DNA of 64,000 nt from Phycisphaerales bacterium. Its GTDB lineage: Bacteria; Planctomycetota; Phycisphaerae; Phycisphaerales; UBA5793. The translations under genes and the position numbers were made by a program. The DNA is taken from positions 248,001-312,000 of the forward strand of contig JADZAS010000013.1 in NCBI GenBank assembly GCA_020852515.1. The letters run 5' to 3'. Under the pieces are notes generated by a model. That model saw only the letters and a list, made by a program, of their open reading frames with translations, did not search any database and was not told where the DNA came from. How positions within the stretch are numbered: the first letter of the stretch is position 1; the number at the start of each line of letters is the position of its first letter. This document shows, in pieces, positions 18,694-37,040 of the stretch.

Positions 18694-19248
18694 TCACCGC
18701 CCCGGATGGTCCAGGTGCACGGTGGACAGCCCCGAGGTGATCGGCTTGCGGCCAGCCTGGGTGAACCGGGCCACGAGGTCGGCCGATTCGATTCTCAGGT
18801 CGTCCCCGGCGCGGTGATCATCGTCGAGTAGCGACACTTCGATGTAATAGCACGGCCCCGGCAGCGCCCTGGTGCGTGCAGCGCGCATCTGCTCGGGCGT
18901 GAACACCCACTCGCGCAGCGGCTGCGTCTGCGGGTCCGCGTAGTCGCCCACGCGATACATCGAGATCGTCAGCGTGCCGTCCTCGTGCAGGGGATACGGA
19001 TACGGCTCGGACCAGAGGTAGATCGTCGCATCGAGACGATCGCCCATGCCGTTGCCGTTCATGTCGCGCGCATACAGCGTCGGGTGAAAGGCGAGGCGAT
19101 TGACCAGCAGCGAAGACGGCTGGGAAGGGATCGTCGCCGGCTGCGGATTCAGCGGAGCCTGGCCGTCTTCGTATTCGGTCACGCAGCCCGCCGGGCCCAG
19201 CGCCAGCGCAGACAGCGACAGGATGCAGGCGCATCGAAAAATTCTCAC
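18694..19248 (-). CDS. Lipoprotein coupled to the giant secretin; candidate pilotin
   Basis: A 184-residue protein with a lipoprotein signal (CILSLSALALGPAGC). Its GTG start overlaps the secretin stop by 4 bases (GTGA), so translation is coupled. The mature part is beta-rich and contains a DMNGNGMGDRLD segment whose Asp/Asn spacing resembles a calcium-binding loop, then DATIYLWSEPYPYP and CYYIEVSLLDDD. I do not recognise the family, and it is not visibly similar to GspS or PilW. Position and lipidation suggest a pilotin or an outer-membrane partner of the secretin; this is inference only. Confidence 0.65.
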   Translation of the reverse strand: MRIFRCACILSLSALALGPAGCVTEYEDGQAPLNPQPATIPSQPSSLLVNRLAFHPTLYARDMNGNGMGDRLDATIYLWSEPYPYPLHEDGTLTISMYRVGDYADPQTQPLREWVFTPEQMRAARTRALPGPCYYIEVSLLDDDHRAGDDLRIESADLVARFTQAGRKPITSGLSTVHLDHPGR

Positions 19249-22200
19249 GATCGCTCCTCCTCTCGACTCGCGGGCTCCCGAGCCGCCGGCTGATCGCTCG
19301 GCTCGTCGCGGCGCGGCTTGCTCCTGCCCGGCGCCGGGTCTTCCCAGAGCGTCGGGTCGATGTCGCCTGCCCGGATCTGCTCTTTCGTCTTAGCCGGGAT
19401 CGTCATGTCGATGATCGCCTCATCCGTGAACTGGCGGGCCTCCTCAACCGAGCCGACCACGTGCGGCGTGATGACCACGAGAAACTCTGTCTTTTCGCGC
19501 CGGTGCAGCCGCGTGCGGAACGGCAGGCCGAAGATCGGAATGTCGCCCAGGAACGGGACCTTCTGGTTGCGCGTTTCGGTTCGCGTCGAGAACAGCCCGC
19601 CGATGACCACCGTCTGGCCGTCCTTGACCGTCACGACCGTGTCCACGGTGCGCGTGTCGATGATCGGCGCCTGGAAATCTTCGCTCACCTGCGTCGTGCG
19701 GGCCGACAGGCTCGAGATTTCCGGCTTGACCTCCATGCGCACGAACCGGTCCGGGCTGATGGAGGGCAGCACGTCGAGGATGATGCCGATGTCCTTGCGC
19801 GTCACGCTGGACCTCGCCGTGCCGGTGTCGGAGATCTGCACGTCTTCGACGATGCCGATGTTCTGGCCGACCTGGAAGGTCGCATTCACGTTGTTGTTGA
19901 CGAGGATCTGCGGCCGGCTGAGCACTTCAAGACGCCCCTGCGCTTCGAGGGCGCGGATGAGCAGTTCGAGATCGTCCGTGGACACGGAGAGATTGGGCAC
20001 ACCCAGGCCCGACAGCGTCGCCGCAGCCAGGCCGAACGTCGAGCCGGCCGTCACATTCTCGCCGCCCAGCGGACCCACGCTGACATCCATGCCCCACTGC
20101 TCATCCGAGTCGAGCGTCACCTCGGCGAGCATGACCGAGATGAGCACCTGCGGCGGGTTCTTGTCCAGTTCCCTGATCATGCTCTCGATCTTGTCCATGT
20201 AACGCGGCGAGGCGGAGATCATCAGCGTGTTCGAATCCTCCACGCCGACGACGGATACTTCGCGCTCGAGCTGTTGCAGGATCGAGCCGGCGCGATCCGG
20301 CCCCAGCGTGCGGAGGATGCGCTCCTGCTCTTGGGTCAGGAAAGTGTTGAGCGCCTGGGCGACGTCCGCGGCTCGCGCGTTGCGCAGCGGGTAGACCTGT
20401 TCGAGCCGCTGCGTGCCCGTCTTGGAATCGAGTTCGGTGATGACCTCTTCGACGAGATCGAGATAGCGCGGCGTGCCCGAGACGATGAGGCTGTTGGTCC
20501 GCGGATCAACCGTCATGGACAGTTGCTGCCGCTCGTCGGTCGCGGTGACCAGTTCGGTGTCGTTGAAGGTGGCGACGACGTTGTCGCCGGGCGGGCCGGA
20601 CGCCGGGTCGTCGTCGCGCGGCCGCAGGATGAGCCCCTGCTCTGGCAGGTTGAACAGTTGACCGAGCAGTTCGGCCATCTGCAGCGCATCGGAGTTGACC
20701 AGTTCAAAGATCCGCACCCGCTTCGAACCCGTCTCGGATGAATCGAGTTCATCGATGAGTTCGCGGATCATTCGCATGGACGACGCCGGTGCGGAGACGA
20801 CGATCGAATTGGTGCGCAGATCGGGAGTGAAGCGGATCGCCTCGCGCACGGCCATGGAGATTTCGGCCTCGGTCGGCTCGCCGTCGCGCTGATCTTCCAG
20901 TTTTTCGCGCGTCGAGTCGCGGATGAAGCGAATGATGGTCGCCTGGTCCTGGGTGCCGCCGCCGCGCCGCCCGCCGGAGAGCACGTTTTCAAGCAGCGGG
21001 ACGATCTCAATCGCGTTGGCTGCGTTGAGCGGGATCATCTGGATCTCGCGCACGTCGGTCACCTGCGTCGATTCGAGTTCGTTGATCAGGTCGCGCAGCG
21101 CGGCAATATCCGAAGCCGGCGCCGAAATGGCGATGGCGTTGAGCCGCATGTCGGGTGAAACGCGAATGGTGCCATCGCCGCGCGTGCGGTTGGCTTCGGT
21201 TACGTAGAGCGCGTTGAGCTGATCGACCATGCGGTCCGCACGCGAATTGCGCAGCGTGATGATCTCGACTTCGGCGCCGGTGGAGGCGAGGTTTTCGGCG
21301 TCGCTGAGCGTGGTGATCAGGCCGCGGATGATTTCAAGATTCTCATCGCTGGCGGCGACGATGAGGCTGTTGGTCGCCGCGTCGGGCTGGATCACCGTCC
21401 GGTCCTGCGCGCCGGCCGACTCGCCCAGCGAGCGCTCGCGCTCGCGCATGAGCGCCTCGAGGCGCGGGGCCAGCACTTCGACGCGCTGCCCGCTGATCGG
21501 GATGACGTGCAGGCTCAGCGCCGGGTTGAACGGCGCGTTCTCCAGGCGCGTCACGAGTTCGTTGATGCGCTTCAGATCGTCGGCGCTGGCAGTGACCAGC
21601 AGGCTGTTGGTGCGCGAGTCGGTGAGGACCAGCGGCTTTTCGCGCGAGGCGAGTTCGCTGGGCAGATCGGCGTACTGCCGATCCATCACGCGCTGAATCG
21701 TGTCGGCGACTTTGGCGGCATTGCCGCGATTGAGCGGGATGATCTGAACGTCGTTGGCGGTCGAGGCGCGCGTATTCTCGAGCGAACTGGCCAGTTGCTC
21801 GATCACTTCGAAACTCTCGTTGCCCGCCGTCACGAGCAGGCTGTTGGTGCGCGAGTCGGCGACGATGACCGCCTGCTGCTGGTCGGCCGTCTCCGGCTCG
21901 GTCTGGCGCAGGCGATCAAGCCGCGAATCCATCAGCCGCTGGATGAGCGGCGCAATTACCGTCGCAGACGCGTTGCTCAGGCGGATCATGCGGATGTCGT
22001 GCAGCTCGGCCGTCTTCTCGGAGTCGAGCGACTGCAGGAGCATCTCGGTGACCGCGAAACTGCGCGGGCTGGTGGTGATAATGAGCGAGTTGGTCCGTTC
22101 GTCAGCCTGCACGGCAAGCCGGTCTTCATCGCGGATCGCACCCGTCTGCGCCTGTCGATCGAACAGCGCCGTGAGAATGGACGCCACGCGGCTGGCCGTG

Positions 22201-25200
22201 GCGTGCCCGAGGGGATAGATGCGCACCGCGTTGGACGGCGCCGCCGCGGGCACGTCGAGCATCGCGACCAGTTCGCTCACGGCTTCAATATTCTCCGGCG
22301 TGCCGACGACGACGATCGCGTTCAGTTTGCTGTCGGGCCGAATGACCAGCCGCGTCATAGGCACGAAGAGATCGGCATCGACCATGTCCTGCGGCCCGCC
22401 GCCGCGCCGGGCGATGCGCAGGCGCCCGACCTGCTTCTGCATGGCCTGCGCCTCGGGGCCGGTCGCCTGGCCGCGCACGAGCACTTCATCGAGCATCTCG
22501 GCCAGCGCTTCAGCGTCGGCGTGGCGCAACGTGAGCACGCGCGGCTCAACCCACTTGGCGGCGATGTCGCTGTCGAGTTTGCCAATCAGCACCTCCACCA
22601 GCGCCACCGACGCCTCGCGGCCGGCGACGATCAGCGTGTTCGTCCGCTCGTCCACCGTCATGGCGACATCCTCGAGCAGCGCGCCGCCCACCTCGGTCAG
22701 CGGACGACCTTCAATGTTCGTGCCCGGCTGTGTCGCGAGTTTACGGCCCTGCGAGAAGAGATCTTCCGCGATCGACTTCATCATGGTCGCGGCGATGTTG
22801 CTCAGCGGGAACAGGCGCACCGTCACCGCTTCCGTCACCGGGAGCTTATCGAACAATCGCACGATCTCGGCCAGCGCTTCGCAATTGGCGGGCGTCGAAC
22901 TGATGAGCACGCCGTTCACGTTCGGCGCGGGCAGCACGCGAATCGGCTGCGTGAGATCGAGATTGAGATCTTCCTGCGTGGCTCCATCGCGGCGCAGGCT
23001 CAGCCGCCGCACCTGCTCCTGAATCGCCACGGCCATGGGCGTGTCGGCGTGCTGCTCGCCGGGCTTGAGCAGGTCGCGGATGATCGTCGCCACCGCGCTC
23101 GCCTCGGCCTGGCGCAGTTCGATGAGCCGCACCTGCGCCTGCGCAAAGTCCGGCGCTGCATCAAGCGCTGCGATGATCGAGAGAATGCGCTCGCGATCTC
23201 CCGGATTGCCGACCACGGCCAGCGCGCGCCGTCCGGGCAGAACGCTGACCTTGAGCGGCTCGCCGAGGATTCCCGCGGCCCCTTCCCGCTGCTTGTCGAG
23301 ATCGAGCGATTCGAGAATCCGCTTCATCTCTTCGGGGGCAATGTTTTCGATGGGCACGACGAAAATCTGCTGCCCGCCGGATGGCCCGAGGCGATCGAGT
23401 TCTTCCACCACCTGCACGATCTGCGAGTAGAGGCGCGCCGAAGAGGCGATAACGAGCGTATTGGCCACGCTGTCCACCTCGATAGCCAGCGGCTCTTCCA
23501 TGGATCGGGCCGTGGCGGTGAAGGTTTCGCGAATCGCCTCCGCCACGCGCGGCGCGCTCGCCTTGGCCAGCGCCAGCACCCGCACCGACATGCCTTCCTT
23601 GCGCGAAGTCTGTTCGAGCGCCCTGGCCAGCGCCTCGATCTGCGAGAACTCATCAGGTTCGGCGCGGACGATGATGGTGTTGGAGGCGGTGTCGGCGGAG
23701 ATGACGATCGACTTGCGTCCGCCGCGGCGGGCGCCGGCCCCGCTGCGCTCATCGGCGTACATGCTGGTGATCGTGGCGGCCACTTCGGCGGCTTTGGCCT
23801 CGTTGAGCGGGATCAGCTGAGCCGGCGGCAACTGCGCGTAGTCCGCCACGTCCAGGCTCGTCACGATCGCCTGGATCTTCTCGAGGTTGCGCCGAGACGC
23901 CGAGACGATGATCGAGTTCGTCAGCGGCTCGGCCGCGGCGCGGACGACGTCGGTGTCATCCACGAGCACGCGAGGCACGTTGCCGCCCTCGCCCTGTTCG
24001 CCGTTGCCGCGACGCACCGGCTGCTCGCCGCCGCGCCGCGCTTCGACCTGCGGCGCGAACGCCTGGTTGATCGCCGCGCTCACCGACGAGGCGTCTGCGT
24101 AGCGCAGTGCGATGACTTCCAGTTGCAGCGTCGCGTCGTATTCCTTGCCGTCCAGTTTGCTGATGAGTTCCTTGATTCCCGGCCACTCGCCTTCCTCGGC
24201 CGAAATGACCAGGCTGTTGCTCACCGGGTCTGAGACGATCGACACGTTCTGCTTGGAGGGCGTGTCCGCTTCGCTCGCCCACCGGCCGTAGAACATGTCC
24301 AGCGCCGAGGCGACCTTTTCGGCCTGCGCGAACTTGATCGGAATGAACTCGGTCGTGCGCACCGTCGCCGCAGGCAGGTCGATCTGCTTGAGGATCTGCT
24401 CGACCTCCGCGTGCTGTTCGGCTGTGGCGGCGATGATGAGGCCGTTGTCGCGGGGCGAAGTAGAGACGGTCGGCACAGGGTCGCTCGACGTGCCGCCGCG
24501 CTGCGCGAGCAGCGTCGAAAGCGTGAGGCGCACATCGCTGGCCACGATGTGCGTCAACGGGTAGATGCGATACTCGCGCACGCTCTTGACGGGCGCTTCA
24601 TCCAGTTCGCCCACGAACCGCGCGATGAGCGGCATCGACTCGGGGGTGGCCACGACGATCACCGCGTTGTTGCGCGTGTTGGCGGTGATGCGGGCGTCGA
24701 TGGCAATGGGCTGCTGGCCCTGCTCCTGGCCTTCGAGCATGAAGCGCGTCACTTCCTCCTGGATGTTCCGGGCCTGGTTGCGCTGCGGCTGGCGGCTCAG
24801 GTCGAACGCGTCATTGAGCACATCGGCCACTTCCGCGGCGCGGGCGTTGGCAAGCGCAAAGGTCTGGATGAGTTTCACTGTCCCCGCCGGCGGCGCATCG
24901 ATCATCGCGAGCACCGCGTCGATCTCCTCGAAGCGGTCTTCGGGCGCGCTGATGACGATGCTGTTGGTGCGCGCATCAGCGGTGACGACCACCTGCCGCG
25001 CCGGCGGCTCATTGCGCGTGGGGAAGAGATCGCGCAGCGTGCGCATCGCGTCGCTCGCGTCGCCATGCTCGAGCATGTGCAGCCGGAAGGCCCGGTCGTC
25101 GCCTTCGCTGGGCACGTCGATGCTGCTCAGCAGATCGCGGATGGTGGCGATCTGCTGAGCGGTGGCGGAGACGACGATCTTGCCCGATTCGTTGGCCGGC

Positions 25201-28200
25201 GTCATCGTGATGCCTGGATCGGGCAGATTCGCCGCTCGGGCCCGATCGTTGAAGAACCGCACCAGGCTCTGGGCCACGTCGCTGGGCCGCGCGTGCGCGA
25301 TAGTGAGGATTTCAATCGTCTGATCGGGCCTGAGCGACGCCTTGTCGAGTTCGGCGACGAAGTCCGCTATGCCGTCGAGTTCAGACTCGCGGCCGGACAC
25401 GATGAGCAGCTTGTTGTCCGGGTCGGCGATGATCTTCACCTCGTCCGGATCGGGCGGGTAATACCACCAGAAGTTGTTCGACTGCGAGGCGCCGTAGCTT
25501 TCGCGCGCGGCCCGGCTGATGATGTTCACATCGCCGTTTTCGATCTTCAGAATGCGCACCGAGCGCACCGCCTGCTGATCGGCCGGCGCGTCCAGAGCGC
25601 GGATCACGTTTTCGATGAGCGCAAAGTTCTCACCCGTGCCGCTGACCACGAGCGAATTGGTGCGCCGGTCTGGCTGGATGCTGATCTTGCCGCGCGACTC
25701 CGACCGTCCGCCCCACCGGCCCACCGCATCGTCGTAGGTCAGTTCCCAGCCCATGCTGCTGACGATGTTCGACACGTCCTCAGCCTTGGCGAACTTGAGC
25801 GGGATGATCTCGTACTTAAGGTCCTGCGCTTCGCTGGGCGCATCGAACGCCTTGAGCAGGTCCTGCATTTCGGCAAAGTCCTGGTCAGACGCCGCCACGA
25901 AGACCGTGCTGGAGCGCTGATCGCCCACCACGCTGATGCGCCGCGGCGGCCGCGCCTGGCCCGGCCGCTGATTCAGGCGGGCCCGGTCCTCGAAGAACTG
26001 CTGCAATGCGCTGGCGGCGCGTTGGGCATCGGCCCGCTCGAGCTTGATCGCGCGGATCGGCAGTTCCTTCGTTTCGAATCGATCGACTTCCTTCACAACA
26101 TCCTGAATCGCCCGCAAGTCTTCCTCGCCCGCGCGGATGAGCAGCAGTTGGGACGGATCATCGGGTACGATGACGATGCGCTCGCGCCGCTTCGGATCGC
26201 CGCCGATGAGAACCTGGTCGATGATCTGCTTGAGACGGCTGGGCGTCGCGCTCTGTGTTTCGAGAATCGTCAGCGGCGGAGCGTCTTCGATGGGCGTAAA
26301 CCGGTTCATCGCCGCCAGCACCCGGCCGATCACTTCGAAGTCCACGTCGTTGGCGCTGACGATCAGTCCCCCGCCCGGCTGGTCGGGTATGACGGCAACC
26401 TCACCCGTCAATCCACCCGCCACGCCTCGCCGGCGCATCTGGGTGAGCAACCCGTTGATCGTGTTGGCGATCTGGCCGGCGTTGGCGCGTTCATCGAGCG
26501 CGATGTAGTGGATCTGCTCGGGCAGACCGGGAATCTGCGACTGGATCTGCTCGGCCAGCTGCGCCAGCCGGTCGTTGGCCTGCGGTGAGCCGACCACGAT
26601 CAGGCTGTTGGACGCTTCGTCCACGGCGATGATGACATCCGGCTCCTGAGCCGGCGGATCGATCGCGAGCACCGACGCCGCGAGCGCAGCGGCGAAGCCG
26701 TCCAATCGCGTCGCATCCTCGTGCTTCAGTTCCGGCGCCACGGACAGATCGGCGCCGATGGGCGTCAGTTGAGCGCCATCATCACCGGCGTCCTGCTCTT
26801 CGCTCTTCTGCCGCCTGATGAGTTCATCGATGCTGATGATCTCGACGCGCGCGCCGCTGCGCTGTTCGAGCAGCCGGCGGAGCGTTTCGGCCGTCTGGGC
26901 CGCATCGGCCTTCGATCGGTCGATGGGAATCATGCGCACTTCGCGCGCTGCGCTGATCGTGGCGGTCTCGAGGTCGTTGATGATGCCTTCGATGACGGCG
27001 AACTGTTCGGAGGTGCCGCGCACGATCAGGCAGTTGCTCCCCGCGTCCACGCGGATGACCGGGGGAACCGCGCTGCCCGTCGTTTCGTCGCCGAGCACGG
27101 CTTGCAGATTCGCAGCAACGTCCTGCGCCCGCGCATTGAGCAGCGGCAGCACGCGCACCGAGCGCTGCGGCCCGGTCGCGATCTTGGTCGGATCGACGTC
27201 AAGTTGCCGCACCATCTCTTCGGCGAGGTTGAGCACAGAGGTCGGCGCGCTGATGACCACGGCGTTAAGTCGCGACTCCGCCGCCACGCGCACATCCGGC
27301 CCGAGATCGGGCAGTTGCCAGCCGCGCCGCATGAAGTCGAATCGCATCCACTGATCCATCTGCTCGCCGCGCAGCAGTTGCTCGACCATCGGCGCCACCC
27401 GGTCCGCCTGCGTGTGCTTGAGGAATACGGTGCGCACCTGCGGCTGATCGGACGCCTGGCCCGAGTCGAGGCTCTCCACGAGCGCGGCGATCTCCTTCAT
27501 CTCGTCGGGGGTCGCGGCAACGACGATCGAATTCGTCGATTCTTCGGCCATGACGCTCGCGACGCGGCCGGGCGGGCTGGAGCCCTGCCGGTTCTGGAGC
27601 AGACTCGAGATCGCCGGGGCAACGTTGGCGGCCCTGGCCTGCACGAGGTTGAACACCTGCAGTTCAACCGTCTCATCGCCGTTGCGCGGCTGGTCGTACT
27701 CGCGGATAATCGACTGGATGATCTGGTGCTGCGCCGGCTGGGCGGCGACGAGCAGCGAATTCGTCGCTTCGACGACTTCGACCAGCGGCGCCGGTCCGAT
27801 GGCGCCGCCCTGGAACGATTTCGAAGCCGACACGAGATCGGTGAGGAACTTCGCGGCCTTGGCCGCGCTGACGTTCTGCAGCGCCAGGAGGCGCACATCG
27901 CGTCCGCTGCCCAGCGTCTGCTGCAACTGCGTGAGGATCGCCATGTAGCGCGACATCGCCGGCGCATCGGCCACGACGTAGAACACGCCCGCAGTCGCAT
28001 CGTGCTCGACGCTGACCTCAGTCAGTGCCGCGTCGGCCTGGCGCTGCTGGGCGTAGATCTCGCCGGCTCGCGCGAGAATCTGCGCCGCGTCGGCATTGCC
28101 GACGTTGACCACGCGGAACTGCACGTCGCGGCTGCGCTTCTCATCGAGCGTCTTGACCACCGAGTCAATCACCGGCGCCTGCTCGGGCAGCGCCGTGACG

Positions 28201-29936
28201 AGAATCACATCCAGCGCATCGACGGGCACGATCTCGGGCGCGACAAACGGCGAGCCGTCATCCGGAGTGAGCAGTTGGGCGCACAGCGTCTTAAGCGGCG
28301 CCGCGATTCGGCTGGCCTGTCCGGGCGAAACGCTGATCTGCCGGGTCTCGCGCTCGATGGGCAGAGCCGATTCGACCGTGGTGAGCAACTGCTGCCAGCG
28401 GGTGATGGCGTCGCGCCGGCCGATCAGCGTGATGGCGTTCGACTCCGGATCGCGCTCGACGACCACCTGGCTCATCGGGTCCGCCTCGGCTGAACCGACC
28501 TCGCGGCCGTAGAGGTCGCTCACGCGCCGGATCACGTCGTCGGCGTCGCCGCGCGCCAGGCGGATGATCCGCACCTCGCGCGGGCGGTCGGTCGGCTCGA
28601 CATCGAGCGTCTGCGCCAATTGCCGCACGAGTTCGACATCCGACGCCGGGCCGGCGAGGATAAGTGAGCGACCGTCGGGTGAGGGCAGCGTATTGACCAG
28701 GCGCGCCTGCCGCGGCGTCATGAGTTGCCTGAGCGCCTGCTGCACGCTGGCGGGCGCGGCAAAGCGCAGCGGCACGACAGCCGCGGTGCGGGCGAAATTC
28801 ACCGGGTCGTCTCCCCCGCCGTCCACCTCTTTAAGCAGCGTCACCGCCCGCTCGAGCGCGATCGCCGAGCCGACGATGGTGATGCGATTGAGTTCTTCCA
28901 GCGGCAGGATGACGGGCTTCTCTTCGTTCTTGAGCGGCTTGAACAGGTCAGTGAGCAGCCTCGCCGCTTCCTGCGTCGAGATGCGGCCGAGGTTGATCGT
29001 CGTCATGTCCGTGCCGTCGGCCCCCTGCTGGCCGGGCACGTCGAGCATGTTGATCATGTCCTCGAGCGTTTCGAGCCGGCCGATGGGCCCCTTGGCGATG
29101 ATGGTGTTCGTGCGGCTGTCGGGCTGGATGCGCAGGCCGGCAAGGTCGTCTTCCTCGAGTTTGACCTGCTGGCCCTGCTGATTGATGACATACTTGACAA
29201 TGCGCTCGCTCATGAGGATCTTGAGCGTGTCCACCAGCGCGCTGGCCTGCGCGTTCTTGATGGGGAAGATGCGCACCTGGTCCTGGTAGTCGCCGGCCGT
29301 GTCGAGCGCGTCGATGATGGTCTGCAGCCGGCGGATCTGGCCGGCGGTTTCCGTGACCAGCAGCGCGTTCTGCTGAGGCAGCGGCGTGAGCCCGCCGTAG
29401 GCGCCAACCAGCGACTGCAGCCGCTCGGAGAGTTCAGCGGCGGTGATGTTCTGCAGCGGGATGAGGACGGTGACCAATTGCTCGTTGGTCACGTCGCCGG
29501 GGATCGTCCCGGCGAGATAGGTCGGCCCGGGATTGGTCTTGTCGAATGTTCCGAGGTACAGAAACTCGCCGTCGCGCGACAGCGTTACGCCCTTGGTCTG
29601 CAGGATGATGTTGAGAATGCGCAGCGCTTCGGTGTACGAGTAGGAGTCGGGCGAGAAATAGGTCAGCGCGCCCTTGGGCGGCTCGACCTTGGCAATCACC
29701 GGCAGTCCTACCGCCCGGCTGAAGAAGTCGATGACGTCGGCGTAGGGCGCATCCTTAAAGTTGAACTGCACCGTCGGCTCGGGCGCGTCAGGCGCCGGCT
29801 GCGAGGCTGGCTGCGCTTGTGTTGAAAGCGCGGGCTCCGGCGCCGGCTCGTCTTGCCCATGTACCGCCGAGGCGAAGCCCAGCGCGGCGAGAGTTGCAAC
29901 GTGCAGCAGGCAAGACCTGATGCTGGTGTTCAGCAT
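19245..29936 (-). CDS. gspD: Giant type II secretion-like secretin with about 37 N-domains
   Basis: A single uninterrupted frame of 3563 residues. A signal peptide (residues 1-27, ending SAVHGQ) and a Pro/Ala linker lead to an N0/STN-like domain (about 52-130: VQFNFKDAPYADVIDFFSRA). About 37 consecutive N1-type secretin modules follow (about 140-3260), averaging 84 residues. Each has an opening strand (V-R-I-x-P-L), a helix, an Asp-x-x-TNSLIVSA strand and a closing helix ending near LD. The last 303 residues are an ordinary secretin pore domain with LEVLSRPQILVNNN, GQTVVIGGLFS and the VPFLGDIPIFG signature. Normal GspD is about 650-700 residues with three N1-type domains. The ATG has AAGGAG upstream. 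It is preceded by gspM/C and followed by a coupled lipoprotein gene. It should form the outer-membrane channel. Confidence 0.95.
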   Translation of the reverse strand: MLNTSIRSCLLHVATLAALGFASAVHGQDEPAPEPALSTQAQPASQPAPDAPEPTVQFNFKDAPYADVIDFFSRAVGLPVIAKVEPPKGALTYFSPDSYSYTEALRILNIILQTKGVTLSRDGEFLYLGTFDKTNPGPTYLAGTIPGDVTNEQLVTVLIPLQNITAAELSERLQSLVGAYGGLTPLPQQNALLVTETAGQIRRLQTIIDALDTAGDYQDQVRIFPIKNAQASALVDTLKILMSERIVKYVINQQGQQVKLEEDDLAGLRIQPDSRTNTIIAKGPIGRLETLEDMINMLDVPGQQGADGTDMTTINLGRISTQEAARLLTDLFKPLKNEEKPVILPLEELNRITIVGSAIALERAVTLLKEVDGGGDDPVNFARTAAVVPLRFAAPASVQQALRQLMTPRQARLVNTLPSPDGRSLILAGPASDVELVRQLAQTLDVEPTDRPREVRIIRLARGDADDVIRRVSDLYGREVGSAEADPMSQVVVERDPESNAITLIGRRDAITRWQQLLTTVESALPIERETRQISVSPGQASRIAAPLKTLCAQLLTPDDGSPFVAPEIVPVDALDVILVTALPEQAPVIDSVVKTLDEKRSRDVQFRVVNVGNADAAQILARAGEIYAQQRQADAALTEVSVEHDATAGVFYVVADAPAMSRYMAILTQLQQTLGSGRDVRLLALQNVSAAKAAKFLTDLVSASKSFQGGAIGPAPLVEVVEATNSLLVAAQPAQHQIIQSIIREYDQPRNGDETVELQVFNLVQARAANVAPAISSLLQNRQGSSPPGRVASVMAEESTNSIVVAATPDEMKEIAALVESLDSGQASDQPQVRTVFLKHTQADRVAPMVEQLLRGEQMDQWMRFDFMRRGWQLPDLGPDVRVAAESRLNAVVISAPTSVLNLAEEMVRQLDVDPTKIATGPQRSVRVLPLLNARAQDVAANLQAVLGDETTGSAVPPVIRVDAGSNCLIVRGTSEQFAVIEGIINDLETATISAAREVRMIPIDRSKADAAQTAETLRRLLEQRSGARVEIISIDELIRRQKSEEQDAGDDGAQLTPIGADLSVAPELKHEDATRLDGFAAALAASVLAIDPPAQEPDVIIAVDEASNSLIVVGSPQANDRLAQLAEQIQSQIPGLPEQIHYIALDERANAGQIANTINGLLTQMRRRGVAGGLTGEVAVIPDQPGGGLIVSANDVDFEVIGRVLAAMNRFTPIEDAPPLTILETQSATPSRLKQIIDQVLIGGDPKRRERIVIVPDDPSQLLLIRAGEEDLRAIQDVVKEVDRFETKELPIRAIKLERADAQRAASALQQFFEDRARLNQRPGQARPPRRISVVGDQRSSTVFVAASDQDFAEMQDLLKAFDAPSEAQDLKYEIIPLKFAKAEDVSNIVSSMGWELTYDDAVGRWGGRSESRGKISIQPDRRTNSLVVSGTGENFALIENVIRALDAPADQQAVRSVRILKIENGDVNIISRAARESYGASQSNNFWWYYPPDPDEVKIIADPDNKLLIVSGRESELDGIADFVAELDKASLRPDQTIEILTIAHARPSDVAQSLVRFFNDRARAANLPDPGITMTPANESGKIVVSATAQQIATIRDLLSSIDVPSEGDDRAFRLHMLEHGDASDAMRTLRDLFPTRNEPPARQVVVTADARTNSIVISAPEDRFEEIDAVLAMIDAPPAGTVKLIQTFALANARAAEVADVLNDAFDLSRQPQRNQARNIQEEVTRFMLEGQEQGQQPIAIDARITANTRNNAVIVVATPESMPLIARFVGELDEAPVKSVREYRIYPLTHIVASDVRLTLSTLLAQRGGTSSDPVPTVSTSPRDNGLIIAATAEQHAEVEQILKQIDLPAATVRTTEFIPIKFAQAEKVASALDMFYGRWASEADTPSKQNVSIVSDPVSNSLVISAEEGEWPGIKELISKLDGKEYDATLQLEVIALRYADASSVSAAINQAFAPQVEARRGGEQPVRRGNGEQGEGGNVPRVLVDDTDVVRAAAEPLTNSIIVSASRRNLEKIQAIVTSLDVADYAQLPPAQLIPLNEAKAAEVAATITSMYADERSGAGARRGGRKSIVISADTASNTIIVRAEPDEFSQIEALARALEQTSRKEGMSVRVLALAKASAPRVAEAIRETFTATARSMEEPLAIEVDSVANTLVIASSARLYSQIVQVVEELDRLGPSGGQQIFVVPIENIAPEEMKRILESLDLDKQREGAAGILGEPLKVSVLPGRRALAVVGNPGDRERILSIIAALDAAPDFAQAQVRLIELRQAEASAVATIIRDLLKPGEQHADTPMAVAIQEQVRRLSLRRDGATQEDLNLDLTQPIRVLPAPNVNGVLISSTPANCEALAEIVRLFDKLPVTEAVTVRLFPLSNIAATMMKSIAEDLFSQGRKLATQPGTNIEGRPLTEVGGALLEDVAMTVDERTNTLIVAGREASVALVEVLIGKLDSDIAAKWVEPRVLTLRHADAEALAEMLDEVLVRGQATGPEAQAMQKQVGRLRIARRGGGPQDMVDADLFVPMTRLVIRPDSKLNAIVVVGTPENIEAVSELVAMLDVPAAAPSNAVRIYPLGHATASRVASILTALFDRQAQTGAIRDEDRLAVQADERTNSLIITTSPRSFAVTEMLLQSLDSEKTAELHDIRMIRLSNASATVIAPLIQRLMDSRLDRLRQTEPETADQQQAVIVADSRTNSLLVTAGNESFEVIEQLASSLENTRASTANDVQIIPLNRGNAAKVADTIQRVMDRQYADLPSELASREKPLVLTDSRTNSLLVTASADDLKRINELVTRLENAPFNPALSLHVIPISGQRVEVLAPRLEALMRERERSLGESAGAQDRTVIQPDAATNSLIVAASDENLEIIRGLITTLSDAENLASTGAEVEIITLRNSRADRMVDQLNALYVTEANRTRGDGTIRVSPDMRLNAIAISAPASDIAALRDLINELESTQVTDVREIQMIPLNAANAIEIVPLLENVLSGGRRGGGTQDQATIIRFIRDSTREKLEDQRDGEPTEAEISMAVREAIRFTPDLRTNSIVVSAPASSMRMIRELIDELDSSETGSKRVRIFELVNSDALQMAELLGQLFNLPEQGLILRPRDDDPASGPPGDNVVATFNDTELVTATDERQQLSMTVDPRTNSLIVSGTPRYLDLVEEVITELDSKTGTQRLEQVYPLRNARAADVAQALNTFLTQEQERILRTLGPDRAGSILQQLEREVSVVGVEDSNTLMISASPRYMDKIESMIRELDKNPPQVLISVMLAEVTLDSDEQWGMDVSVGPLGGENVTAGSTFGLAAATLSGLGVPNLSVSTDDLELLIRALEAQGRLEVLSRPQILVNNNVNATFQVGQNIGIVEDVQISDTGTARSSVTRKDIGIILDVLPSISPDRFVRMEVKPEISSLSARTTQVSEDFQAPIIDTRTVDTVVTVKDGQTVVIGGLFSTRTETRNQKVPFLGDIPIFGLPFRTRLHRREKTEFLVVITPHVVGSVEEARQFTDEAIIDMTIPAKTKEQIRAGDIDPTLWEDPAPGRSKPRRDEPSDQPAAREPASREEERS
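20157..29519 (-). repeat. Array of about 37 secretin N-domain modules inside gspD
   Basis: By reading the translation I counted 37 repeats of the pattern strand-helix-strand-(D-x-R-TNSLIV)-helix-LD, each roughly 70-115 residues. Most are highly diverged in protein sequence. Modules 31 and 32 share the DSRTNSLLVTA core and are near-identical in DNA there (around 21593-21625 and 21831-21863 on the plus strand), which suggests recent duplication or conversion. Modules near 6, 7, 13, 14, 15 and 26 lack the TNS core. The count could be off by one or two. Confidence 0.85.
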
Positions 29937-30020: not shown

Positions 30021-30977
30021 CTACTGGTTTACCGGCCGACGTTCTTCAAGACTCTGTCCGATTTGGATCGAGAACAGCGATCCCTCGATGCTGACGACCG
30101 CCTGCGCCCGCGATATCTCCTCCACCTGCGCTTCGAGAATCCGATCCCCGGCCCGCAGCTGCTTCGCCTCGCTGGTCTTGCGGTTGCGCAGCCAGAGTTC
30201 CGGCTGCTGGTCGATCCAGACGATGCCCGTCACCACCCAGTCGCCCCACGGCACGGGCGCCGGCGCAGGCGGCTGGACCGCCACGGCCGGCTTGACCTCG
30301 GGCTTCACTTCGGGAGCGGGCGGCGGCGCGCGGAAGAGGTTCTTGCCGCTGATCGACGCGTACGAAGGCGCCTGCGCCAGACCTGGAGCCGGCTGGGGCG
30401 GCGGATCGGCGCCCGGCAGGATCACGGTCGTCAGCGAGACCGACAGATCCACGACTTCTCCCCCCCGGCGCGGCCGCAGCGAGAAACGATCGATCCGGCT
30501 CAGGTATGGCTCGGCCGCGATGACTTCAACCGCGCGCACCGCCTGCTCGAAGGTCCCCTGCCCACTGAACTCGGCGCCAAGCGTGTAGAAATCGGGCTGG
30601 GCCGTCAGGCTCTTCCACCGGCGGTCGCGGTACTCCGATCTTGCCGGGGATGCGACAGACTTGGGGTTGCCGGTGGACACGCGCAGGTCAGTCAGGCCGA
30701 TGCCGTGCCCGATCGTATTGAGCCGCTCGCGCAGGATGCTGACCGCTTCCTCCGACGTCCCCGCCAGCGTTCGCGCTGCTGCGTCGCGCAGCTCCCGACG
30801 CTGTGCCACTTCCTTGTTGATCGTCTCCTGCAGCCGCGCGATGGTTGTGCGCTCCTCGTCAATCCGGTTGAGCAGGTCGCGGCGCGGCGCAAAATACGAT
30901 TTCGACGCCGTGGACCACAGCAGCCATGCAGCGGCAGCGCCGGCGACCGAAAGGAAGATGAGCCGCGCCCGCGTCAT
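30021..30977 (-). CDS. GspM/PilO-like protein with GspC/PilP-like C-terminal domain
   Basis: A 318-residue inner-membrane protein. It has an N-terminal TM (IFLSVAGAAAAWLLWSTA), then a coiled coil (LLNRIDEERTTIARLQETINK) and a ferredoxin-like region of GspM/PilO type. An Ala/Pro linker (APEVKPEVKPAVAVQPPAPAPVP) is followed by a C-terminal domain: GKNLFRAPP before the linker, then WVVTGIVWIDQQPELWLRNRKT, LRAGDRILEAQVEEI and AVVSIEGSLFSIQIG. That last part follows the strand order of the GspC homology region and PilP, which contact secretin N0. There is no PDZ domain. I read it as a GspM-GspC fusion. It overlaps gspL by 4 bases. Confidence 0.75.
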   Translation of the reverse strand: MTRARLIFLSVAGAAAAWLLWSTASKSYFAPRRDLLNRIDEERTTIARLQETINKEVAQRRELRDAAARTLAGTSEEAVSILRERLNTIGHGIGLTDLRVSTGNPKSVASPARSEYRDRRWKSLTAQPDFYTLGAEFSGQGTFEQAVRAVEVIAAEPYLSRIDRFSLRPRRGGEVVDLSVSLTTVILPGADPPPQPAPGLAQAPSYASISGKNLFRAPPPAPEVKPEVKPAVAVQPPAPAPVPWGDWVVTGIVWIDQQPELWLRNRKTSEAKQLRAGDRILEAQVEEISRAQAVVSIEGSLFSIQIGQSLEERRPVNQ

Positions 30978-32668
30978 CCGCCGCTTCCTCTCCGGCTCGA
31001 TCGGCGACCGCGACCACCCGCCGGCGACGTCTCCTCAGCCGGGACGCTCGGCTCCTGCGGGGCGATCTGCTCGGGCGCGCCCGCCGCGGCGGCTTCGCCT
31101 GGTTGCTGGGAAGTTGCCTGCTCGGGCGCGGCGCCGGCGCTCGACGCCAGCGGCTGAGTCGCCCCGCCACCGGCCGGCGGGACTGGCAGCGGCGTGATCA
31201 ACCTCAACCCGAACGCTTCGGTGTAGGTCTTGTCATTCGACGACGTGTCGGCGACGATCGGCTCGGTGCGGTAGGTATCGAGATCCACGAACGCGGCGCG
31301 GATGGCGTCGGCGATCGGGCGACTGACCGCGGCTCCGCTGAATTGCAGCGAAGCCTCCATCTCGACCCCGAGCCACTTGCCCTCTTTGCGGCGCATCACC
31401 GGCTCATTCATCGACGCGCTGAACGAGCCGAGAATCGCCTGCTGGGTCTGCGGCAGGTGTTCGGACACAAACGCGAGATGATCGAGCCAGTTGAACCGCG
31501 CTCTCTCCCAGCGGCTCAGGTGTTCGAGCCGAAACCGTTCATGCTCGTAACCGAGAAAGTCGGGCAGCAGGGCGTCCTTCTCGTCGGTGAGTGACTTGAG
31601 TTGCCCCTCCAGCCGCCGCAGGTGCATGTTCCCGGCCGTCCAGATCGAGCCGAGCACGATGATGATCGCGGCGACGGCGCCCAGCACGCGCTGGCGGCGG
31701 TGCGCCGCCAGATCGGGCGCCTGCTTGGGCTGGAAGAAGTTGACGCCGTCAAGACCCTCGGCCGCCGCAAGCCCGACGCCCACCAGCGGCCAGGCGGGCC
31801 CGAGCGTGGCCGTGTCGCCGGACACCTTGGGGTGGCTGAGCAGCACCTCGGTCGGGCGGCCCAGCAGGCTGCGCACTTCCGTCGCCACGCCGCCGGCGAG
31901 CCCGTCATTGCCGATGACCACGATGTGCTCGACGTCGGGCGACTCTTCCGTGGCGCGGTAACTCATCCACGAGCGCTTCGCCTCGGTCGCCAGCCGCCTC
32001 GCCTCTTCGTGGCGATCGACCTTCTCGGAGGCCGAGATCACTTCCGCGGCGCGGGCGAAGCACACCCGGCCATCGCACGCAACGACCAGCTCCACTTCGC
32101 CGTAGCGGCGCAGGTCAATCGCCAGCAGCGAGCCGCTGCGCTGCCGCGACATCTCGGCGATGAGCGAGCCCGTCGCCAGCGGCCGCAGCGCGATGCGGTC
32201 GATCCTGAATCCGCCAGCCAGCGCCAGCGATTTGTAACGATCGATGAGTTCTTCGCGGACAGCGGCGGCGATGACTTCCGATTCGCCTTCGGATTCGCGC
32301 TCGGCCGCATAGTCGATGATCGACCCCGCCGCAGGGAAGGGCAATTGGCCGGCCATCTTGATCGCCACCATGCCCGGCAGTTCGTCGAGGCGCGTGCTCG
32401 GCAGCACGAGATGCTTGAGACCCACCGACTGTCGAGGGACGACGAACACCACCGGCCCGGGGCCGAAGCGATGTTCCTTCATCGTCCGCGCCATCCACTT
32501 GCCGATCCACTCGTCGTCGCTGGGCTCGATGTCCGGCGGGATGTCCAGCGACACGCGAGCCCCCACCTTCACTCCCGATCGCGCAGCCGTAAGGTGCACG
32601 GCCGTGAACTGGTCGCTGCTGAGGTCGATGGCGGTGAAGCGGCTCACGCGGCCGCGCGGCGAAAACAT
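30974..32668 (-). CDS. gspL: GspL-like assembly protein (PilM-PilN type)
   Basis: A 564-residue protein. Residues about 1-330 form an actin-like PilM/GspL cytoplasmic domain (FTAIDLSSDQFTAVHL, SGSLLAIDLRRYGEVELVV, VEHIVVIGNDGLAGG). One TM helix follows (VLGAVAAIIIVLGSIWTAG, about 337-355), then a coiled coil and a PilN/GspL periplasmic ferredoxin-like domain. A Pro/Ala/Gln/Glu-rich tail of about 70 residues ends in RGRRSSRRGSGG. It anchors the inner-membrane platform and would normally recruit the GspE ATPase, which is not encoded here. It starts 3 bases after the gspK stop. Confidence 0.85.
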   Translation of the reverse strand: MFSPRGRVSRFTAIDLSSDQFTAVHLTAARSGVKVGARVSLDIPPDIEPSDDEWIGKWMARTMKEHRFGPGPVVFVVPRQSVGLKHLVLPSTRLDELPGMVAIKMAGQLPFPAAGSIIDYAAERESEGESEVIAAAVREELIDRYKSLALAGGFRIDRIALRPLATGSLIAEMSRQRSGSLLAIDLRRYGEVELVVACDGRVCFARAAEVISASEKVDRHEEARRLATEAKRSWMSYRATEESPDVEHIVVIGNDGLAGGVATEVRSLLGRPTEVLLSHPKVSGDTATLGPAWPLVGVGLAAAEGLDGVNFFQPKQAPDLAAHRRQRVLGAVAAIIIVLGSIWTAGNMHLRRLEGQLKSLTDEKDALLPDFLGYEHERFRLEHLSRWERARFNWLDHLAFVSEHLPQTQQAILGSFSASMNEPVMRRKEGKWLGVEMEASLQFSGAAVSRPIADAIRAAFVDLDTYRTEPIVADTSSNDKTYTEAFGLRLITPLPVPPAGGGATQPLASSAGAAPEQATSQQPGEAAAAGAPEQIAPQEPSVPAEETSPAGGRGRRSSRRGSGG

Positions 32669-32670
32669 GA

Positions 32671-34296
32671 TCAGCGGTCTCCTGTCCAGCGCCCGATTGG
32701 CTTGACGCGCGGCTTGGGAGGCGAAGGCTCGGCCCCGTCCTCCGGCGGCGGGCTGTCCTCGCCGGAGGCATCGTAGCGACCCGGCTCGGGCGGCGCAGCC
32801 GACGCGTTCTCTTCATCATTGTCAAACGTCGCCGGATCGATCAGGCGACCCGACGCATCCCGACGCGAGGTGTACCGGGAACCCGGCTCGGGCGCTGCAT
32901 TCGGCTGCCCACCCGCGCGGCCTGGCTCTTCTGCACGTTCCGCGTCATCCTCCTCGGCCGCAGGCGGGGCCGGCACGAGGCTCCGCAGCGCGATCACCGT
33001 TTCGAGCATCGTCACGTCGCGCAGGTATGCAACGCGCGGCTGCGGGCTGGAAAGGTCGATGACCGCCTCGTACACACACTCCGCCGCCACGTCAGACCCC
33101 TCGCCGTCGCCCGTCAGCACGCGCCCGAGCACGAGGACGCGCCACGCCGAGGTGCGCCACGTCAGTCGCGGCGCCGCGGCGATCCACTGCTCGCTCGTGA
33201 GCGCGCCCGAGTTGACCAGCCACGACACGCCGGCTCGCTCACTGGCGCTGATCGTCTCGCGGGCCGAGATAATCGCCGTCGCCAGTTCGCCGTCCAGGCC
33301 GGGTAGAGCCGACAGGACTTCGAGCGGCGCGCGGTTGAGATCGACGTGCCCCTGCGCGAAGTGCTGGTCATCGAGGCAGAAGCCGTCGATGTACTCGTCC
33401 GGCTTGCTTTCATCTATGTCCGCCTGCGACAGCAGCGTGTACCACGTCTTCTCGTCGATGACGAGGTCCGGCTCGTTCTGGCGGAAGGTGCGCACCGTGT
33501 TGGCCAGTTCATCGCCAAAGCGCCGCGCGATGCGCCGGTGCATGCTGTCGTCGTATTGCGCGTTGAGATTGATGCGGTATCGGCCGCTGGACTGGAGCAC
33601 GGGCTCGATGCTGTAGACGGTGAGCACGTCCGCCAGGCCGCGCGGCGCCGGCCCGCCCACGCCTCGCTCGAGGTAGCGCAGGCGCCGGTCAAACTGCGCA
33701 TCGGCGTCGGGCGATTCCGCCGCAGCGCGCTGCACGTCGATGCGCTCGAGCGGGCCGTAGAGCATCTCGGGCGTGATGCCTTCGACCAGCAGCAGGTCGG
33801 CAATGGAGTCGAAGCGCCCGCCGGGCCGCTGCTGGCGCGCCGCGACGATCGCCTGGGCCTGCTCGGGCGTGAGCATGTCACCGAGGCGCGAGAGCGAATC
33901 GGCGTCGGCCTTGTTGAGGTCGAGTTTGGCGCTTTCGGAGACGAACAACTCATCTTCGAGCCCGACGGGCAGCAGATAGACCATGCCGCGCTCCGTCTCG
34001 CTGCCGTAGAGGCTCCAGTTGTCGGTGATCTGTGGCTCGGCGCCGTTGAGCAGATCGGATCGCTGGCGATCGAGTTCCGCCATCACGGCCTGCACGCCCG
34101 ACCACGCCAGAGCGTGCGCCTGCGAAGTGCGGTTGACCAGCGCCGCGCTGCGCATCTCGGCGCGACCGAGAAACGAGAGGCTCGTCATGATCAGCGCCGC
34201 ACCGCTGATGATGACAAACACCACCAGCAGGATCACGCCGCGGCGATCCGCGCGCGGAGGCTGCAGCGCACCGGCATTCCCGGTGGAGCGCCTCAC
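32671..34296 (-). CDS. gspK: Type II secretion minor pseudopilin GspK
   Basis: A 541-residue protein, larger than typical GspK (about 330). It has a prepilin leader ending DRRG followed by VILLVVFVIISGAALIM. Lack of Glu at +5 is characteristic of GspK, which caps the pseudopilus tip. Downstream, AKLDLNKADADSLSRLGDMLTPEQAQAIV and FDSIADLLLVEGI are the helix-hairpin-helix-like SAM domain of GspK. The C-terminal 150 residues are a Pro/Glu/Ala-rich extension (for example PAPPAAEEDDAERAEEPGRA) without counterpart in model GspK. It overlaps gspJ by 4 bases. Confidence 0.9.
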   Translation of the reverse strand: MRRSTGNAGALQPPRADRRGVILLVVFVIISGAALIMTSLSFLGRAEMRSAALVNRTSQAHALAWSGVQAVMAELDRQRSDLLNGAEPQITDNWSLYGSETERGMVYLLPVGLEDELFVSESAKLDLNKADADSLSRLGDMLTPEQAQAIVAARQQRPGGRFDSIADLLLVEGITPEMLYGPLERIDVQRAAAESPDADAQFDRRLRYLERGVGGPAPRGLADVLTVYSIEPVLQSSGRYRINLNAQYDDSMHRRIARRFGDELANTVRTFRQNEPDLVIDEKTWYTLLSQADIDESKPDEYIDGFCLDDQHFAQGHVDLNRAPLEVLSALPGLDGELATAIISARETISASERAGVSWLVNSGALTSEQWIAAAPRLTWRTSAWRVLVLGRVLTGDGEGSDVAAECVYEAVIDLSSPQPRVAYLRDVTMLETVIALRSLVPAPPAAEEDDAERAEEPGRAGGQPNAAPEPGSRYTSRRDASGRLIDPATFDNDEENASAAPPEPGRYDASGEDSPPPEDGAEPSPPKPRVKPIGRWTGDR

Positions 34297-35123
34297 TGTG
34301 AACCTCCGGTTTCGAGCGGCGGCGGGGCGTCGAGCGCCGTCTCATCGCTGTAACTGCGCCCGTACTCAAACTCCGGCGCATCGGGAATGATGATGAGCCG
34401 CACGCGATCCGGCGGCGGCCAATCGCGCCGCTCCTCTTCCATCACTTCGACGGGAACGTCAGTCGAATCCGGCGAGGCTGGCCGCGGCGAGCCGAACATC
34501 GCCGCCAGCGGATCATCCGGCTCTTGCGCCAGCAGGTCTTCCTCGAGGCCCGGCTCCTGCGGATCGCGCGGCGGAGCGACGAACCACACCGCCACCTCCA
34601 CCGCCACCGGCAGCCGCCCGCTCGCGCCGCTGTCAAACCGTTCGACCCAGCCGCTGCCGTTGTGGTAGCGCCACTGCACATAGCCGAGGTCGTCGGCAAT
34701 ATTCGACAATGCCGGATCCGCCGACGCCGCGCCGCGACTGCCCTGCAGCAGTCGCGCGCCGTCATCCCAGCGGAACTCGCTTCGCTGCAGGTCACTCAAT
34801 GCGGTCGCCAGGCCCTGCGACTGGCCCATCGCCCCGACGCTGCGGCTGAGCACCTTGATCGACGAGCCGTCGCCCACGATCCCCGCACCCTGGCCCGCAT
34901 CGCTCGCCACCGACGTGCGCAGGTCCTGCTCGAGGCGGTCGAGAAACACCCGCACCGCCTGCGACCGCCGCATGTGCCGGTTCAGTCGATCGCGGCTGGC
35001 GGTGAGATTCATGCCGAACGCGAAGACGAGCCCGACGAGGACGAGCAGCAGCCCAAGCGCGACGAGCGTCTCCATCAGCGTGAAGGCGCGGGATGGAGGT
35101 TGATGCAGCCGACCACCCTTCAT
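34293..35123 (-). CDS. gspJ: Type II secretion minor pseudopilin GspJ
   Basis: A 276-residue pseudopilin. The leader MKGGRLHQPPSRA precedes FTLMETLVALGLLLVLVGLVFAFG, with Glu at +5 of the mature helix. The residue before the cleavage site is Ala rather than the usual Gly. The globular part contains SQAVRVFLDRLEQDLRTS and YVQWRYHNGSGWVERF, typical of GspJ. The C-terminus is extended by acidic and proline-rich sequence. Its start overlaps the gspI stop and its stop overlaps gspK, so translation is coupled throughout. Confidence 0.88.
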   Translation of the reverse strand: MKGGRLHQPPSRAFTLMETLVALGLLLVLVGLVFAFGMNLTASRDRLNRHMRRSQAVRVFLDRLEQDLRTSVASDAGQGAGIVGDGSSIKVLSRSVGAMGQSQGLATALSDLQRSEFRWDDGARLLQGSRGAASADPALSNIADDLGYVQWRYHNGSGWVERFDSGASGRLPVAVEVAVWFVAPPRDPQEPGLEEDLLAQEPDDPLAAMFGSPRPASPDSTDVPVEVMEEERRDWPPPDRVRLIIIPDAPEFEYGRSYSDETALDAPPPLETGGSQ

Positions 35124-35614
35124 CCGCCACCACCTTCCAGCGGCAGCGGCGGCGCGCCATTGAGCAGCGGGTCCGACTCGAACTCCTCCGGCGCCGACGC
35201 ATTGAGTCGGATGAGTTGATGGAGCACGGCCAGCTCGGTCTCGTTGCCCACCGAGCCGCTGCGCGCATCGAGAACGCGGATCGTGACGTTGGTCAGCGGG
35301 CTGAAGCGCGACGGCTCGGTCTCGACGACGAGCCGCCAGCGCGCCTGGGGCATCTCCGCATTGAATTCGACCTCGCTTTCGCTGAACAGTTCCACATCGA
35401 CGAGCGAGTCGTTCAGTTGCTCCGCGGTCGTGAGCCCCGCCTCAAGAGCCGCCATCTTCGACACGGCCAGGTCGGCGGCAATCTGCCGGTCGCGCGAGCG
35501 CGCCAGCGACGCCGTCATGCTCGTGGTCGAGACGAGGATGATCGATCCCGCCGTCACGAACAGCGACAGCGCGATGAGAATCTCCAGCAGCAGGGCGCCG
35601 CGGCGGGCGATCAT
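35120..35614 (-). CDS. gspI: Type II secretion minor pseudopilin GspI
   Basis: A 164-residue pseudopilin with the very short leader MIARRG, then ALLLEILIALSLFVTAGSIIL carrying Glu at +5. The following helix (LARSRDRQIAADLAVSKMAALEAG) and the small beta domain fit GspI, which nucleates the pseudopilus tip with GspJ and GspK. Four-base overlaps occur with gspH (upstream) and gspJ (downstream). The C-terminus ends in a Pro/Gly run. Confidence 0.85.
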   Translation of the reverse strand: MIARRGALLLEILIALSLFVTAGSIILVSTTSMTASLARSRDRQIAADLAVSKMAALEAGLTTAEQLNDSLVDVELFSESEVEFNAEMPQARWRLVVETEPSRFSPLTNVTIRVLDARSGSVGNETELAVLHQLIRLNASAPEEFESDPLLNGAPPLPLEGGGG

Positions 35615-36447
35615 GGCCCGGTCTCCGTTTCCGCTTCACTGTCGGGTTCGAGCGCGTCGCCGACGTCCGCCGGCGCTGACTCCATGACCGTCACGGTGGC
35701 CTGCCCGGTCCAGGGATTGACCTCGATGCGCGATTGTCGCCCGGCCGCATCCACAATCGTGAAGGACGCATCACCAAAGGTCGATCCGTCAGGCATGTAG
35801 ACAAGAAGGGAGACGGGCTGCGCGTCATGCAGCGAGAAGCGGGCCGCATCGCCCGCAAGCGCCCAAGCCCCGCTCAGGGGCGCCTGCCCATCGGCGTCAT
35901 CCTCCGCGGGCGGGCGGGTCTGGATGCGAAATCCCTCTGGCAGAACCAGACGCAGTCGCGAGCCTCCCAGCGCCAGCGCCTTGGGATCCCCACCCGCCGC
36001 CGCGCCGAGGCGGGCCGACAGGGGCTCGTCTTCACTCGCTGCATCGGGTGTCGCTGCGCTGTCAACCCGATCATCAGGCGAAGCACCCGCGTCCTGTTCT
36101 TCGAGTGCGCCGGTGTCGAGCCACGCCGCGTAGAGCGCGCGCTCGCCTGGCTCCCACAGCATCTGCACCGGCCGCCGCTGCCTTTGCGACTCCGCGCGCG
36201 ACAGCGCCAGCATGGCGATGACCTGATCGGCCGTGGCGTCGAAGCGCGTGCTTTCGAAGCGCCGCGTCATGGCCGGGATGGCCACGGCTGCGGCCGCAAT
36301 GAGCAGCACGAGCACGATGAGAATCTCGATGAGCGTCAGGCCCGCGCGGCGAGAATGGGCTGGCGACCTCCGGCGGAGCGATCCCGGCCGCGCGGCGGCG
36401 AGCCGCGGGCGGACCTTCTCAGCCGCAGCGTCGATGCTCGCGGACAG
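35611..36447 (-). CDS. gspH: Type II secretion minor pseudopilin GspH (probable CTG start)
   Basis: The pilin signature RRAG followed by LTLIEILIVLVLLIAAAAVAIPAM lies in this frame, with Glu at +5. The first conventional start codon (GTG 36315) falls inside that helix and would delete the leader and half the TM. Between the gspG stop (36466) and the signature there is no in-frame ATG, GTG or TTG. A CTG at 36447-36445 is preceded by GGGAGG with 6-base spacing and gives a 36-residue leader ending in Gly, so I chose it. The mature protein continues RRFESTRFDATADQVIAMLALSRAESQRQ, as in GspH, with an Asp/Glu/Ala-rich insertion. The call of GspH rests on operon position. Confidence 0.75.
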   Translation of the reverse strand: MSASIDAAAEKVRPRLAAARPGSLRRRSPAHSRRAGLTLIEILIVLVLLIAAAAVAIPAMTRRFESTRFDATADQVIAMLALSRAESQRQRRPVQMLWEPGERALYAAWLDTGALEEQDAGASPDDRVDSAATPDAASEDEPLSARLGAAAGGDPKALALGGSRLRLVLPEGFRIQTRPPAEDDADGQAPLSGAWALAGDAARFSLHDAQPVSLLVYMPDGSTFGDASFTIVDAAGRQSRIEVNPWTGQATVTVMESAPADVGDALEPDSEAETETGP

Positions 36448-36990: not shown

Positions 36991-37040
36991 GTTCATCTCC
37001 TTGCACTCGGCGTCAGATGGGCCGCAACGGCGTTGCGTCG

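Follow-up and report, generated by a model that had tools for sequence, protein, structure and literature searches.

A type II secretion system secretin with 37 N1-type modules in Phycisphaerales and its one-chain and two-chain relatives

The window analysed here, a stretch of 64,000 nucleotides from Phycisphaerales bacterium (JADZAS010000013.1), carries on its minus strand a single unbroken open reading frame with an ATG start that encodes 3563 amino acids (19245-29936). Its product is best explained as GspD, the secretin that a type II secretion system (T2SS) places in the outer membrane, with a periplasmic N-domain array expanded from 3 to 37 modules. The 37 modules are conserved throughout the genus, and in several related lineages the array is divided over two chains. 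We cautiously favour a reading of this giant secretin as a T2SS GspD whose modules would stack as rings and so make up a conduit some 100 nm long.

Domain content, predicted fold and operon

The usual GspD consists of an N0 domain and three N1-type modules in about 650-700 amino acids. A sequence-only reading of the window had described a single frame with a signal peptide, an N0-like domain, about 37 N1-type modules and one pore, and this description proved right. The domain count that it called for (PF03958, PF07660 and PF00263 types) gave, in a Pfam scan, Secretin_N (PF03958) in 36 stretches with 1109 bits and Secretin (PF00263) once; the same scan found no AMIN domain. A module HMM, built from the giant secretin and iterated on relatives, set the number of modules at exactly 37, with a median spacing of 77 amino acids, a median linker of 14 and one linker above 30 (Table 1). 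The GspD N0 profile PF21305 matched residues 58-119 under the Pfam cut-off, and a family-specific N0 profile delimited the domain at residues 56-127. Instead of few N-domain hits, a broken frame or an absence of long secretins among close relatives, we thus found plentiful matches, an intact frame and relatives that carry long secretins.

Table 1. Features of the giant secretin and its operon (positions in the window)
Feature	Position	Strand	Basis
Small downstream gene with lipobox-like N-terminus, candidate pilotin	18694..19248	-	GTGA overlap with secretin stop; conserved in many relatives
Giant T2SS secretin (GspD), 3563 aa, calculated 386 kDa	19245..29936	-	Single ATG frame; PF03958 x36 and PF00263 x1
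Secretin pore domain, residues 3329-3494	19455..19952	-	PF00263, 159.7 bits
37 N1-type modules, residues 166-3260	20157..29441	-	Module HMM; AF2 beta-alpha-beta-beta-alpha
Module 26, putative counterpart of the f97/f11 split module	23154..23345	-	By eye; local matches weak
Module 12, residues 1010-1133, long alpha1-beta2 loop	26538..26909	-	Gene-split module in genus g22 and in G053
Hydrophobic signal-peptide-like stretch FAAALAASVLAI, residues 1081-1092, module 12 loop	26661..26696	-	AF2 low-confidence helix
N0 domain, residues 56-127	29556..29771	-	Family N0 profile E 2e-30; PF21305 weak, E 0.064
Signal peptide, residues 1-27, ...LAALGFASAVHGQ	29856..29936	-	Translation, by eye
GspM-like inner-membrane platform protein	30021..30977	-	Weak T2SSB match; conserved position
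GspL-like (PilM_2 fold)	30974..32668	-	PF11104 E 4e-4; conserved
GspK minor pseudopilin	32671..34296	-	PF03934 E 4e-8
GspJ minor pseudopilin	34293..35123	-	PF11612 E 3.5e-4, N_methyl
GspI-like minor pseudopilin	35120..35614	-	ComGE-like prepilin match; position
GspH minor pseudopilin	35611..36315	-	PF12019 E 1e-5
GspG major pseudopilin	36466..36996	-	PF08334 E 8e-19
GspF platform protein, start uncertain	37100..38440	-	PF00482 x2, E 2e-57

Single-chain AF2 models were computed from the window sequence with its relatives. Each full module was predicted as beta-alpha-beta-beta-alpha, with a block pLDDT mostly of 70-88 in module cores; the pTM values were 0.39 and 0.32, and inter-module confidence was low. 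Foldseek placed the T2SS secretins at the top for the module models, GspD, ExeD and XcpQ being the nearest PDB folds, and an internal module pair superimposed on N1-N2 of XcpQ at about 4.5 A over 146 columns. The structure prediction of module pairs that had been proposed recovered an N-domain fold with T2SS as its nearest kin, but AF2 gave no inter-module geometry.

The best matches of the giant secretin, in sequence and in fold, are GspD proteins. With GspD/PulD (PDB 6hcg, 5wq7, 6i1x) it shares a signal peptide, N0, N1-type modules, a single PF00263 pore and a pseudopilin operon; it differs in having 37 modules rather than 3 and 3563 amino acids rather than about 650-700, roughly a fivefold increase in length, in an operon without GspC and GspE, and in an array that is often carried by two chains in relatives. 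Two other identities were considered. PilQ secretins are marked by AMIN domains and a PilMNOP operon, and the Tad secretin RcpA by a CpaF-type ATPase alongside. A type IV pilus PilQ was rejected because the Pfam scan gave no AMIN and the operon is of the pseudopilin type with T2SSG/J/K, and RcpA because no CpaF-type ATPase adjoins the giant secretin.

The genes follow the order F-G-H-I-J-K-L-M-D on one strand with the giant secretin as the last Gsp gene, and most giants of the class are surrounded by genes in this order, as far as the fetched stretches reach. The intact pseudopilin operon claimed from the sequence is borne out by GspF, GspG, H, I, J and K and the L-like and M-like genes upstream, and the secretin, which had been called probably functional, is of T2SS type and very probably functional. 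The small gene downstream, for which no Pfam match was found, is a candidate pilotin by its position only. No GspC was recognised for this operon, and GspE is not in it, 17 T2SSE matches lying elsewhere in the genome.

The genome encodes seven further secretins; those on contigs C29, C37 and C39 adjoin an ATPase, and the giant one has no neighbouring ATPase. On contig C19 (L074, G000:C19, 2851-7590), a 1580-amino-acid frame has an ABC transporter (PF00664, PF00005) on its N-terminal side and PF00263 on its C-terminal side, a possible ABC transporter-secretin fusion judging from the frame. Long frames with this secretin recur in each of the five genomes that make up the genus (1580-1728 amino acids) and in the sister genus (1310). 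The C19 frame was rejected as a second giant array since it contains no modules. Another secretin frame, of 1163 amino acids (L078, G000:C16, 4584-8072), bears TPR-like repeats ahead of its pore and has counterparts of about 1150 amino acids in the other genomes of the genus.

Conservation, distribution and age of the array

Orthologous frames of 3569, 3580, 3602 and 3765 amino acids are present in the four other genomes of the genus. All five species have 37 modules that align one to one throughout, and dN/dS values of 0.06-0.19 indicate purifying selection over the whole array. Conservation is highest in the pore (91-100% identity within the genus). For the order, 151 genomes were surveyed with a profile that covers the pore together with the last modules: 61 matches exceeded 530 bits, the next best reaching 385, and they place the same secretin clade in 60 genomes. 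Frames above 3000 amino acids hold 52 of these 61 matches, the longest having 5073 amino acids (counted from the match table). Across the class, 93 of 248 genomes matched at E 1e-110, mostly with giant frames, up to a maximum of 6169 amino acids with 61 modules. The named loci among the matches listed belong to Phycisphaerales/Phycisphaerae. The search for secretins above 2000 residues in related genomes, as the sequence-only reading had suggested, was thus positive at both ranks.

The array, which is class-wide, runs from about 20 to 61 modules, a roughly threefold spread between genera, and about 30 relatives scanned with the module HMM show the same regular spacing and uniformly short linkers. 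In a tree of the pores, the giants, the split forms and the Planctomycetia forms are united (support 96/97), apart from ordinary GspD. Three giants from MAGs labelled Verrucomicrobia or Proteobacteria (L095, L096, L101) fall among Phycisphaerae in this tree, and judging from that placement the labels are probably wrong. One giant of 4557 amino acids (L070, G465:C1) has a gap of 440 amino acids between recognised modules, which points to divergent modules or to an inserted domain.

Could the array be a neutral or recent repeat expansion, a pseudogene or an assembly artefact, and functionally inconsequential? Tandem duplication does occur, since modules 27 and 29 of another giant (L062) are 92% identical and represent a recent event, and some relatives carry broken copies, with frameshifts in G005 and an in-frame TAG flanked by modules on either side in L101, whose MAG is labelled Verrucomicrobia. 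However, module identity within the giant secretin averages 26% and reaches 42% for the best pair, so the duplications are old and a recent tandem expansion is ruled out for it. An assembly artefact is likewise ruled out by the orthologues across the genus, the many separate assemblies and the dN/dS values, and a constant 37 modules in five species under such selection makes the explanation as a whole very improbable.

The G005 copy (L052, G005:C1:2223507-2243400), from the sister genus, consists of frames of 2199, 1710 and 1519 amino acids with 54 modules in total, linked via frameshifts without new signal peptides. The 1519-amino-acid frame was rejected as a genuinely short orthologue because the upstream frames of 2199 and 1710 bear modules; from the frames, the copy would be either a broken gene or a sequencing error. 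Sequencing error was rejected as a general explanation of short frames, since in genus g22 and in families f97 and f11 the downstream chains have signal peptides of their own.

Arrays divided over two chains and the loop of module 12

In two Phycisphaerae families, in one genus and in several Planctomycetia, the array is shared between two polypeptides: an N0-bearing chain without pore and a pore chain that has no N0. The end of the array chain usually falls within a module's alpha1-beta2 loop, and in the Phycisphaerae splits the complementary half-module opens the pore chain, after its own signal peptide. In genus g22, the upstream gene encodes a signal peptide, N0 and 16-18 modules, with no pore, and breaks off partway through a module; the downstream gene opens with a second signal peptide, followed by the other half of the split module, 24 modules and the pore. 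The two genes overlap by ATGA in one member (L091). In the clearest cases the two halves map to adjacent parts of one module of unsplit relatives, 17-53 amino acids apart, and this module corresponds to module 12 of the window. A g22-like split at module 12 was also seen in G053, at a contig end. The upstream chain of f97 has 2600-2813 amino acids and 22-24 modules (its f11 counterpart is cut by the contig) and ends after beta1-alpha1 of a module other than module 12, which by eye corresponds to module 26 of the window, local matches being weak. The downstream chain of both families, of 1570-1745 amino acids, comprises a signal peptide, the complementary half-module and 14-16 modules.

The Planctomycetia pore chains are of about 1260-1500 amino acids, with 7-9 modules and no N0. 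Their separate array, N0-bearing and poreless, has 1100-3265 amino acids, and most of those examined end in a half-module; the longer ones (L109, L111, L206-L210) carry 13-28 modules. This pair resembles the giant secretin in its modules and N0 and has a pore of the same clade, and differs in being two separate genes. In L109, the pore chain examined most closely, the start showed nothing that would complement the terminal half-module. N0 is always N-terminal; in the two-chain systems it lies on the poreless array chain, and the pore chains examined lack it.

The same loop also receives nearly all long insertions. Among 33 giants, 296 of 297 inserts of at least 10 amino acids lie in the alpha1-beta2 loop, the site of loop 288-303 of PulD N3, which is unresolved in the structure (PMC6882859). 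Inserts are confined as if all other faces of the modules were buried. Hydrophobic 12-mers occur in 18 of the 297 inserts, and 16 of these 18 belong to module 12, where such a stretch recurs in most fused giants of three families; in the split species a signal peptide sits at this very place. The stretch could be what is left of a gene fusion, or else a co-opted loop, a luminal gate or a processing site. If it were an internal signal-peptidase site, the mature protein would be two chains even when encoded by a single gene. The recurrence of the stretch, its concentration in module 12, the equivalent signal peptide of split species and the VxA or AxA-like motif in which many stretches terminate all speak for such cleavage. 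Nevertheless, we consider it improbable: the stretch is short and without a clear basic n-region, its richness in alanine means that AxA may arise by chance, the loop is the least conserved part of the giant secretin (36-61% identity within the genus), one giant (L082) lacks the stretch, and the relic, co-opted loop and gate are alternatives for it.

A possible modular conduit across the periplasm

What is directly established is the sequence with its domain count, the class of fold that AF2 predicts, the operon, the conservation and the recurrent division into two chains that each bear a signal peptide. As for the architecture, about 15 protomers would form one ring per module, as in solved GspD, with a mass of about 5.8 MDa for the 15-mer. 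If most modules stack, the rings would make a conduit that leads from the pore in the outer membrane to an N0 ring, which would dock to the inner-membrane platform, and the pseudopilus would push folded substrates through it. In split lineages, the conduit would consist of two coaxial segments that meet again at a half-module, either shared or terminal. PulD has a length of 20 nm (PMC6882859), and Thermus thermophilus PilQ, with six stacked N-rings, measures 35 nm or 350 A (PMC5745081); these two, with 4 and 6 N-rings, bracket our estimate of 2.5-3.5 nm per ring, which would put the conduit at roughly 90-140 nm and the 37 modules at roughly 90-130 nm.

A long tube of stacked modules is supported indirectly by short uniform linkers, a single insertion site, N0 at the far end and splits within modules. 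The uniform linkers and the single insertion site along the whole array suggest that every module is packed alike. The N-domain fold, the regular spacing, the conservation of the operon and the purifying selection over 37 modules also count for the conduit. Against it are the low global confidence of the single-chain AF2 models, the spread of about threefold in module number, which implies that length is not tightly tuned, the position of GspE outside the operon, the unrecognised GspC, the half-module of L109 without partner, and the described Phycisphaerae, which give no sign of long envelope-spanning tubes.

Another explanation could be that only the pore-proximal modules form rings and that the rest fold back, make flexible arms, or bind to peptidoglycan, the inner membrane or cargo; they would then serve as a tether or selectivity filter and not as tube wall. 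The low inter-module confidence of AF2, the pore being the most conserved part, the drift of module number between genera and the flexibility often seen in the N0-N2 regions of solved secretins (PMC6532946) are in line with it. Against it are linkers and an insertion site that stay the same along the whole array and the retention of N0 at the far end, even on a separate chain, and we regard it as rather unlikely. The favoured stacked conduit can be extended to the Planctomycetota, above all the Phycisphaerae, as a modular conduit whose length would run from tens of nanometres to about 200 nm (38 rings in the giant secretin, about 62 at most), built of one chain or of two joined within one module, lengthened by added modules and possibly gated at the hydrophobic module 12 ring, a proposal that is plausible and that we advance only tentatively.

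Thermus PilQ is the best precedent for elongation via added rings (PMC5745081, PMC4463427), in a periplasm about 70 nm wide (PMC4463427), although it belongs to a type IV pilus system, has six rings as against 38 and another N0 fold. The mitochondrial T2SS has N-domains and half N-domains as separate proteins (GspDN1-DN3); this T2SS-like system is similar in that it encodes PF03958 domains apart from the pore, among them half domains, C-terminal and N-terminal, each as a polypeptide of its own, and differs in being eukaryotic, with single small domains and no long array (PMC8134430). The planctomycete periplasm can be greatly enlarged (PMC5394234, PMC8567305). Cryo-ET of Planctopirus places crateriform complexes where the membranes lie close (PMC5394234), and known Phycisphaerae are without crateriform structures (PMC7783415), so that tube and periplasm may, but need not, match. 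The open-licence literature searched contained no account of giant or array-split secretins, and one may exist elsewhere; the arrays on two polypeptides appear to be new, and the closest precedents are Thermus PilQ for extra rings and the mitochondrial GspDN proteins for splitting.

The structures cited have up to six N-rings, and the giant clade, conserved across the class, has up to 61 N-type modules per chain. The splits inside modules bring to mind the half N-domains known from the mitochondrial T2SS and, with a signal peptide on both chains, constitute a natural experiment on the cohesion of secretin rings. If the modules are stacked, this conduit would be longer than any inferred to date for a periplasm, and two questions would be open to testing: by what means a secretion machine spans a periplasm that is enlarged or variable, and whether the number of rings sets its length. 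Planctomycetota are rich in polysaccharide-degrading enzymes whose export is unclear, and the giant secretin and its operon provide a concrete secretion machine to examine in this phylum.
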